DNA from: Streptomyces sp. NBC_01267
GTDB lineage: Bacteria; Actinomycetota; Actinomycetes; Streptomycetales; Streptomycetaceae
Length of the DNA: 64,000 nt
Assembly: GCF_036241575.1 (NCBI RefSeq)
Contig: NZ_CP108455.1
Location: 2,843,501 to 2,907,500, forward strand
Direction of reading: 5' to 3'
Part shown: one piece after another, positions 9,017 to 11,694 of the stretch
Layout: every line of letters starts with the position of its first letter
How positions within the stretch are numbered: the stretch's first letter is position 1
Translations under genes and position numbers: made by a program
The notes under the pieces: model-generated
Database searches by the model: none
Told to the model about the DNA's origin: nothing
The model's input: only the letters and a program-made list of their open reading frames with translations

Positions 9017-10105
9017 TCACAGTTGCTCATATCGACCCCTGATCTGCCCGCACATCGCCATGTCCACAGCAGGGAGCCAAGAGCCAGGGGGCATCTCCAG
9101 CCATCCGTGACCTGCCACTGCCTCGTCGATCGCCGCATGAAGGGCACTGAGCCCCGGGTGTCGCAAGGACTTTCGCCAGACGAGGGAAACCGGCGACAGC
9201 GGTACGGGATCCACCACCGGCCGCAGCACCATGCCCGGAACGCCGATGAACTCGGTGCTCGCCAGGACCGACCAGCGCCGTTTGCGGATCACTCGCGCGA
9301 ACTCCTCCGGTCCGTCGATCTCCGGGAAGGGTTCGGCCAGTTCGATGCCCCGGCCCGCGAACAGCCGTACCGCCAGATCGGTCCACTCGGCCGTGGCCGG
9401 GTTTCCCGCCGCCGCGTAGAGGCTCTCCCCCGCCAGCGCGGCCAGCGGTACCTCCTCCAGGGCCGCGAGCCGGTGATCGCCGGGCAGCAGGACCGCTATG
9501 CGCTCGAACCGGACCGGCCGGTGGTCGAGTACGTCGAGCAGTTCGGGCGGCAGCCCGGCGACCCGCCCGGCCGAGACGTCGAGTCGGCCTGCCGCGATCT
9601 CCGCCGCCGCGCCCGTGAGTCCGCTGTGGAACCGGGCCACGAACTCGACGTCGGGCGCGCTCTCCCGGGCCCGCTGAAGCAGGCGGTGGGCGGTGCTGAC
9701 CGGGGCGCCGACGTCGAAGAGGAGCGGGCGGTCGTCGCGCGCCCAGGCCACCGCCAGCTCGTCGTACGCCGCGAGCACGCGCCGGGCGTACGGCAGCAGC
9801 CGCACGCCGTCGGCCGTGAGCGAGACCTGGCGGGTGGTCCGTACGAACAACTCGGCCCCCAGTTCCCGCTCCACCCGTCGGATGTCCCGGCTCAACGACT
9901 GCTGCGCGACGTAGAGACGGGCGGCGGCACGGGTGAAGTGCAGATCCTCGGCGACAGCCACGAAGGCCCGCAGCAGACGGGGGTCCAGGTGCCGAGGGTC
10001 GTGCGCCCGGGAATCACGGGACCGGGAATCACGGGACCAGGAGTCATGAGGCCGGGGACCACGAGGCGGGGGATCGTGGGGCGGGGGATCGTGGGGCGGG
10101 GGCAT
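9017..10105 (-). CDS. LysR-family transcriptional regulator with a His/Asp/Arg repeat leader
   Basis: 362 aa. A LysR helix-turn-helix lies at about residues 43-100 (LRAFVAVAEDLHFTRAAARL, then LSRDIRRVERELGAELFVR). An effector-binding domain follows. Residues 2-40 are an unusual low-complexity leader (PPPHDPPPHDPPPRG, then SRDSRSRDSRAHD), encoded by short direct DNA repeats. No in-frame ATG or GTG occurs between this leader and the HTH, so the ATG at 10105 is the only good start. It faces away from the MFS gene across 83 bp, the usual arrangement for a LysR protein controlling its neighbour and itself. No effector can be named. Confidence 0.85.
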   Translation of the reverse strand: MPPPHDPPPHDPPPRGPRPHDSWSRDSRSRDSRAHDPRHLDPRLLRAFVAVAEDLHFTRAAARLYVAQQSLSRDIRRVERELGAELFVRTTRQVSLTADGVRLLPYARRVLAAYDELAVAWARDDRPLLFDVGAPVSTAHRLLQRARESAPDVEFVARFHSGLTGAAAEIAAGRLDVSAGRVAGLPPELLDVLDHRPVRFERIAVLLPGDHRLAALEEVPLAALAGESLYAAAGNPATAEWTDLAVRLFAGRGIELAEPFPEIDGPEEFARVIRKRRWSVLASTEFIGVPGMVLRPVVDPVPLSPVSLVWRKSLRHPGLSALHAAIDEAVAGHGWLEMPPGSWLPAVDMAMCGQIRGRYEQL

Positions 10106-10188
10106 CCGGTGAACTTACAACGCAGCCGCGTCAATCGCCCCGGAACAAGTGTTGGACCCCGTGACGGCGGCGCAGCCAGGCTGGGGCC

Positions 10189-11694
10189 ATGCCGCACGAG
10201 TCCCGCTCGGGGATACCCACGCCCGCCACCACCACCGTCCCGCCGCCCACCACCGACCCGCCCAGCACCGGCACCACGTCCGGCACCGGCACCACCGCCA
10301 ACCCCCCAGGACCTGTCCGGCCGATCCTTGCCGGGTCCGGAACGCCTGGCACTTCCCCAAGTTCTCGGCTCCGCTCGAACAGGGGAGACCCCATTCCTCG
10401 CCGCGTTGCCGAAACGCCCACAGGAAACCACCCTGCGGACCCTTCGGCGCCTTGCGATGCACCGCACCAGACGCCCCGGACTGATCCGACAAGACCGACC
10501 GGACAGGTCCTCACCCCCTACCGCCGCCTTCTCACCACCCCCGGCGCCCGCGCCTTCACCGCGGGCAACCTCGTCGCCCGGCTGCCCAGCGGGATGTTCG
10601 GCGTCAGCGCCGTGATCATGATCGCCGGGGCGCGCGGCTCGTACGCCCTCGCCGGCGCCGTCACCGCCACCGGGCTGGCCGCCACGGCGCTCGTCGGCCC
10701 CTGGACGGCCCGGCTCATCGACCGGTACGGCCAGAGCAGGATCGCCGTACCCGCGGCGCTCACCGCGGCTCTCGGCTCTCTCGCGCTGCTGCTGTGCGTG
10801 CACTTCGACGCACCGGACTGGACGCTCTTCGCCGCCTACGCGGCCACCGCGACCACCCCCAACACCGGCGGGATGTCCCGGGCCCGCTGGGCTCATCTGC
10901 ACCGCGACGACCCGGCCGCCCTGCACACGGCCAACTCCTTCGAACAGGCCGCCGACGAGCTCTGCTTCATGCTCGGCCCGGTGGTGGCGGCCTTCCTCTG
11001 CTCGGCGCTCTTCCCCGAGGCCGGGACGCTGGTCGGGGCGTTCCTGCTCGTCACCGGCGTCCTGGTCTTCGCCGCCCAGCGCGCCACCGAACCGCCCGCC
11101 ACGCCCCGGACCACCAGGACCCGCTCACCGGTCCGCCACCCCGGCTTCCCCGCACTGCTCGCGGTCTTCCTCGCCACCGGTGCGGTGTTCGGCGCCATGG
11201 AGGTCACCACGATCGCCTTCGCCGACGCCCACGGACACCGCTCGGCCTCGGGCGTCGTACTCGCACTCCAGGCGGCGGGTTCCGGTGCTGCGGGACTGCT
11301 GTACGGGGCGGTGCCTCCGGCGCGGAACGTGCAACGGCGCCTGCTCTGCTGCCTGGCCGCCATGACCGTACTGATGACGGGCCCCCTCGTCGCGGCCTGG
11401 GCCACCGGCTCACTGCTCGTCCTCGCGGGCTCACTCCTGTTCGCGGGCGCGGCCACCGCACCGACCATGGTCACCGGCATGACGCTGGTCCAACGCCTCA
11501 CCCCGGCAGGGCAGTTGAACGAAGGCATGACACTCGCCGTGACCGCGATCCTCGGCGGCATCGCCGCGGGCTCGGCCACCGCGGGCTGGGTCGTGGAACA
11601 TACGGGCGCCGTCTCCGGTTACGCCGTGCCCACCTCGGCCGCCGCCCTCGCCCTGCTGCTGTGCGCGGCAACTCACCGTTCCCGGCGGGGATGA
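10189..11694 (+). CDS. MFS transporter with an N-terminal extension contributed by a small mobile element
   Basis: 501 aa. The MFS body begins near residue 108 (LTPYRRLLTTPGARAFTAGN) and has about 12 hydrophobic segments; it resembles putative drug or sugar efflux proteins of the MFS. Residues 1-40 are Thr/Pro-rich. Residues about 41-107 are translated from a 204-bp inverted-repeat element that happens to be open in this frame. Without it the protein would be about 433 aa, normal for the family. It lies divergent from the LysR gene, its likely regulator. The true start in the modern gene could be ATG 10189 or a site inside or after the element, so expression may have changed. Substrate unknown. 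Confidence 0.8.
   Translation: MPHESRSGIPTPATTTVPPPTTDPPSTGTTSGTGTTANPPGPVRPILAGSGTPGTSPSSRLRSNRGDPIPRRVAETPTGNHPADPSAPCDAPHQTPRTDPTRPTGQVLTPYRRLLTTPGARAFTAGNLVARLPSGMFGVSAVIMIAGARGSYALAGAVTATGLAATALVGPWTARLIDRYGQSRIAVPAALTAALGSLALLLCVHFDAPDWTLFAAYAATATTPNTGGMSRARWAHLHRDDPAALHTANSFEQAADELCFMLGPVVAAFLCSALFPEAGTLVGAFLLVTGVLVFAAQRATEPPATPRTTRTRSPVRHPGFPALLAVFLATGAVFGAMEVTTIAFADAHGHRSASGVVLALQAAGSGAAGLLYGAVPPARNVQRRLLCCLAAMTVLMTGPLVAAWATGSLLVLAGSLLFAGAATAPTMVTGMTLVQRLTPAGQLNEGMTLAVTAILGGIAAGSATAGWVVEHTGAVSGYAVPTSAAALALLLCAATHRSRRG
10308..10511. mobile_element. MITE-like 204-bp element with about 30-bp terminal inverted repeats
   Basis: The left end (AGGACCTGTCCGGCCGATCC from 10308) and the reverse complement of the right end (AGGACCTGTCCGGTCGGTCT from 10511) are identical for 13 bp. 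They remain closely matched for about 30 bp with one indel. There is no transposase inside; the interior has a GGCACTTCCCCAAG block of a type I recall as dispersed in streptomycete genomes. The length is 68 codons exactly, so the host frame is not shifted. No clear target-site duplication could be fixed because the flanks are C-runs. Confidence 0.8.

Follow-up and report, generated by a model that had tools for sequence, protein, structure and literature searches.

The window analysed here, a 64-kb stretch of the genome of Streptomyces sp. NBC_01267, contains a gene for an MFS transporter and, in divergent orientation, a gene for a LysR-family regulator (Table 1). Within the N-terminal tail of the transporter lies a 204-bp element with inverted ends, which had been thought to sit in the control region shared by the two genes and to form an extension ahead of a normal MFS start at LTPYRRLL. 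Both placements have to be corrected. The stretch between the LysR gene and the ATG at position 10189 is conserved between the window and six relatives, which indicates that the control region is untouched, and this ATG lies 30 nt after GTTGGACC, the distance in the six relatives being 30 or 31 nt. The element begins 119 bp downstream of the ATG and falls within a native tail that starts at this conserved codon, the insert being located between residue 40 and residue 108 of the protein.

In the predicted structure of the transporter, helices set in at residue 109, and ahead of them residues 1-69 and 71-94 score below 50 in pLDDT. Since the alignment behind the model (26 sequences, the other rows mostly starting at the MFS core) hardly covers the tail and so accounts for part of the low confidence, these values are weak evidence for disorder; the MFS N-terminal tail is probably unstructured. 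On the other side of the control region, short repeats at 10020-10105 give the LysR gene a repetitive N-terminal extension with many proline and histidine residues.

Table 1. Coordinates of the features described in the text (window positions, unless a contig is named; G000 is the own genome)
Feature	Position	Strand	Remarks
Divergent LysR-family regulator	9017..10105	-	
Intact divergent LysR-MFS control region, ACTTACAAC...GTGTTGGACC	10106..10188	.	Alignment with six relatives; conserved spacing to ATG
MFS transporter, 501 aa, element in N-terminal tail	10189..11694	+	PF07690, E 2.3e-16
Native low-complexity N-terminal tail before the element, ~40 codons	10189..10307	+	Tails of orthologues vary in length
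CCAG, probably what remains of the left CTAG duplicate	10306..10309	.	Inferred by analogy with 44 two-ended copies
204-bp MITE copy	10308..10511	+	AGG..CCT convention; host reads element frame +1 (GPVRP...TGQV)
Left terminal inverted repeat	10308..10326	+	17/19 match to right arm
Extra module, CTTCCCCAAG...GGGGAGACCCCAT	10350..10395, boundaries approximate	+	L001 compared with L002
Right terminal inverted repeat	10493..10511	-	Pairs with left arm
CTCA, probably what remains of the right CTAG duplicate	10510..10513	.	Inferred; read CTC-A (Leu)
AAGGGCTGTCCCGTAATTCC-ended MITE copies, L007-L010	G000:C1 at 40931, 1584626, 3374182, 7489057		

Structure and copies of the element

The main structural features of the original prediction are confirmed. 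The ends share 13 of 13 bases, 17 of 19 over the terminal repeat and 20 of 30 in an ungapped comparison (about 76% over 46 bases when gaps are allowed), and the 204 bp amount to 68 codons without a stop in the host frame. As stand-alone proof of a mobile element, however, either feature had to be rejected, each being within chance: the 64-kb window holds five perfect 13-bp inverted pairs, against an average of 2.1 and at most 7 in 60 shuffled versions, and among 2000 shuffled versions of the element 834 have no stop in the host frame. Ends and open frame alone being unremarkable, the element is counted as real because of its copies. It folds as a single long hairpin (-91.7 kcal/mol, z -4.6), Rfam gave no match up to E 1 within 10100-10700, and in the frames examined the 204 bp are too short to encode a transposase. 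The MITE-like nature that had been claimed is borne out by the inverted ends, the dispersed copies and the lack of a transposase of its own, and on sequence criteria the element is a non-autonomous MITE of the IS5 type.

The original prediction allowed that the ends might have no other copies, and a search for them yielded many, both in the own genome and in the genus. In the own genome 24 match rows reach E <= 0.001, a count that includes the element itself and in which one place can contribute several rows; one further copy there has both ends and nearly the full length (7410699-7410863, 165 bp). With the window copy as query, matches were obtained in 241 of 295 Streptomyces genomes, and with a 165-bp relative in 346 of 392, many of the genus matches being partial with respect to the query. 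Because two candidates were scored per genome, the copy numbers are minimum values. The window copy is 39 bp longer than the 165-bp unit (L001 against L002), a difference that is due to an extra module; this module is supported by genus matches that cover only about positions 45-89 of the query.

Among 44 two-ended copies, which include the window copy and its same-species twin, 21 measure 165 bp and 31 have a length that is a multiple of three. The commonest unit is 161 bp, which together with a presumed 4-bp CTAG duplication would add 165 bp, that is, 55 codons. In a wider sample of 136 copies with detected ends, differing ends surround one common internal core. MITEs with unrelated ends share this core around GCGGCGTTG and GCCTTGCGATGCACC, as if ends had been swapped and the core kept. 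Another MITE of the own genome, with AAGGGCTGTCCCGTAATTCC ends next to TA, is present in four copies with equal match scores.

Probable target site and IS5-family partner

The flanks of the 44 two-ended copies point to a CTAG target, with T at -1 in 29 and C at -2 in 36 on the left, and A at +1 in 29 and G at +2 in 35 on the right. In the 136-copy sample, CTAG lies within 8 bases of 143 of the 272 ends. The window copy is flanked by CCAG and CTCA, and no intact target duplication is present there; the CTAG signature is that of the family flanks. Elements of the IS5 family use CTAG-like targets.

The suggested search for a partner transposase was successful in part: IS5-family transposase genes flanked by these ends were found on plasmids of other strains, but none in the own genome. 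A short left-end query matched 38 plasmid records, six of which, picked by eye, were examined; in four of these six (L369-L372, from other strains) an annotated IS5-family transposase lies between matching inverted ends, with CTAG at both. The stretch between the ends is about 957 bp in the S. clavifer plasmid, and longer in the other three, which hold an additional gene. This gene, found beside the transposase in L369, L371 and L372, encodes a hypothetical protein or belongs to the Imm7 family, and would represent either a passenger or one of two adjacent elements; in L369 a second, less similar left end lies further in. A DUF4096 domain (E 3.4e-31) is present in the L372 transposase, and that of L370 has stops within its annotated stretch. 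In the own genome, 50 exact 13-base matches to the end include no inverted pair at the spacing of an IS, as far as exact ends go, and four of its 13 DUF4096 matches have CTAG-flanked ends of a different sequence. The transposase elements of other strains, which share both ends and target with the MITE, point to the IS5 family as the source of its ends.

Empty sites and in-frame copies in other genes

Orthologues outside the species lack the element, as an alignment of the kind suggested in the original prediction reveals, and homology resumes directly after it. A 701-bp query covering the region matches 391 of 392 Streptomyces genomes, many of them weakly and not all orthologously; among the matches listed, all but those of the own genome and of another genome of the same species (G374) begin at query positions 400-440, the element ending at 412. 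Among 130 fetched loci, some of them overlapping, the element is present in four, all of this species, and absent from the 126 others, so that at no examined locus outside the species is it an ordinary conserved part of the gene. One non-species locus has 41 bp resembling part of the element, away from the gene. The tail at the start of the orthologous proteins, which often begins M-P, differs greatly in length, and because of this native variability the empty site cannot be fixed to the base.

The insertion into the MFS gene had been regarded as unusual, yet it does not stand alone: relatives lie in frame inside unrelated genes. A D-amino-acid oxidase of the own genome holds a 111-bp relative directly ahead of the VHNYGHGG motif, and against a solved D-aspartate oxidase the oxidase query is matched as far as residue 275 and then from residue 314 onwards; the 165-bp copy of this genome is in frame in the C-terminal part of a GtrA-family protein. 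Another 165-bp copy is inside an ABC ATPase (L206, P0002), whose Pfam match spans the insertion with 204 residues over 133 profile positions; a solved-structure search with this protein gave no alignment across the insertion. Three further copies found by DNA (L268, L285 and L221) lie inside coding frames, which presumably resemble a glyoxalase-type protein, DoxX and CaiB, respectively.

Protein searches with the element peptide returned, besides the window gene, ten proteins in frame +1 and four in frame -1, 13 of the 14 being named as Streptomyces and P0006 carrying no name. They comprise the ABC ATPase of L206, two glycosyltransferases, an M48 peptidase, another MFS transporter, a GNAT, a radical SAM protein, a FUSC protein, a PHP protein, two regulators (AAA/LuxR and WYL) and three proteins that are hypothetical or unnamed. 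P0003 and P0009 are orthologues of each other, and P0005 and P0007 end within the element. The two glycosyltransferases are orthologues from differently named strains; they carry the element at the same position, and although they differ there by 13 residues in length, both remain in frame. The same kind of in-frame accident has happened repeatedly in other genes.

At least 7 of 139 examined copies are in frame in a gene, in a sample selected for similarity to two copies which also lie in genes, L001 and L005 having been added by hand. This number is a lower bound because the context rules missed known in-gene copies: a strict codon-composition rule, which classed 135 of the 139 (65 with neither flank coding, 54 with one), missed L001, L002, L005 and L206, and a second rule missed L285. 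By this weak codon-composition test, most sampled copies appear to lie between genes. In six cases both flanks are coding on one strand in different phases, which were read as neighbouring genes by inspection only.

The reading of the target offers a reason why the frames survive, since a CTA-G reading adds no stop and a C-TAG reading would. The right junction is present in 12 proteins, with Leu in 11 and Pro in P0008, and in 11 of 11 cases the codon of the residue after the junction Leu begins with G, as expected for CTA-G. Where DNA sequence is available, the junction Leu is encoded by CTG or CTC five times (the window, L002, L005, L206 and L268) and by CTA once (L285). The shared CTA-G reading is claimed for the two frames searched in the protein collection only (+1 and -1). 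A bias to one reading frame was considered and rejected, since a +1 query finds only +1, a -1 query found four proteins, and L221 uses another frame. A change of CTAG to CTGG as a mark of coding selection was likewise dropped: it is also present in L258, L261 and L264, which are not among the copies shown to be in genes, and L285, which is in a gene, keeps CTA.

CTAG ends also meet genes in another manner. In a count of 141 CTAG ends that includes related loci, 50 adjoin a coding frame ending in the TAG of that CTAG, and the other two phases account for 1 and 3. The family thus appears to lie often at TAG stop codons, with the upstream gene keeping its stop, and to enter a coding sequence now and then. 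MITEs at TAG stops may alter the 3' ends of many Streptomyces transcripts.

Origin of the MFS segment and known relatives

The MFS segment very probably arose when an IS5-type MITE transposed into a CTAG-like target inside the short tail of the gene. An IS5-family transposase with the same ends would have moved the MITE in trans; a net 165 bp, with a further 39 bp here (also a multiple of three) and the target read as CTA-G, would have added whole codons and no stop; and the cell would tolerate the 68 extra codons because they lengthen a variable, probably unstructured tail. On a broader scale, CTAG-targeting IS5-type MITEs might provide Streptomyces with a general route of protein change, in which a net 55 codons and the CTA-G reading, in either orientation, add a segment and leave the gene unbroken, many other copies lying at TAG stops that overlap CTAG; this extension is tentative, and we place it somewhat short of an even chance.

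It could be argued that the MITE occupies a transcribed but untranslated leader, the true MFS start lying inside or after it and the open frame being a by-product of high GC. The ordinary frequency of open frames among the shuffles would fit such a leader, as would the protein cluster P0001 (433 aa) for this transporter, which starts inside the element, and the three differences between the element copies of the window and the other genome of the species, all three nonsynonymous (six further differences lie elsewhere in the gene; Fisher p 0.11), the MFS copy giving no sign of amino-acid constraint in this comparison. Yet the first residue of P0001 corresponds to an ATT codon in each of the two genomes compared, the host frame between 10189 and the MFS core offers no ATG, GTG or TTG (L025), ATG 10189 keeps the start spacing of the six relatives, and mid-protein copies elsewhere must be translated if those proteins are made, all of which renders an untranslated leader unlikely.

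A different proposal would be that the peptide is kept because it is useful, the family being selected for coding capacity and the segment modifying the transporter, for which the repeated in-frame presence in unrelated genes and the shared site and preserved frame of the glycosyltransferase orthologues could be invoked. This pair, however, is identical at 41 of 54 positions inside the element and at 973 of 1041 outside it, the differences between the MFS copies are nonsynonymous without exception, and selection on the host gene would by itself suffice to retain the frame; we consider a useful peptide very unlikely. That the segment is an ordinary conserved part of the MFS family resembling a MITE by chance can hardly be maintained, no supporting point having been found for it and both the 126 loci without the element and the copies elsewhere in the genome and genus standing against it. 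Under the favoured transposition origin, the extra MFS segment is tolerated, and a benefit to the host is hypothetical.

The closest known kind of element would seem to be the Rickettsia palindromic elements (RPE), small repeats described in the review PMC10969869 as lying in frame inside many unrelated genes. The Streptomyces element resembles them, as far as that description goes, in being in frame in unrelated genes (the 14 proteins and the copies found by DNA); the likeness claimed is one of mode of action, and the phylum is another. Unlike the RPE as presented there, the Streptomyces family lies mainly outside genes, as far as tested, and is marked by IS5-like ends, by a CTAG signature and by related IS elements that carry these ends. 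Intragenic ERIC, BOX and similar repeats are described in the same source as having open frames able to fuse with host genes (PMC10969869); the two cases share repeats with open frames and possible fusion, but sequences and hosts differ, and the comparison is by description only. A word search of PMC10969869 gave no mention of Streptomyces.

With IS5-family MITEs the element shares short length, lack of a transposase, terminal inverted repeats, the CTAG signature and ends in common with IS5-family transposase genes; it differs from them in that unit and duplication together make 165 bp, hence whole codons, and in that unrelated ends share an internal core. In the open literature, covered by titles and the beginnings of abstracts and with subscription papers mostly outside, no description of in-frame MITEs in Streptomyces was found. 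What happened at the MFS gene would be ordinary transposition followed by tolerance, and it is the recurrent, genus-wide pattern that we did not find described.

Fusion of small repeats in frame is best known from Rickettsia, and it is met here in a free-living, GC-rich and much-sequenced genus. With the empty sites and the related IS elements available, it can be tested directly whether such segments are of use or only tolerated. Annotators should bear in mind that a MITE may be the source of an odd gene start or of an insertion in a Streptomyces protein.
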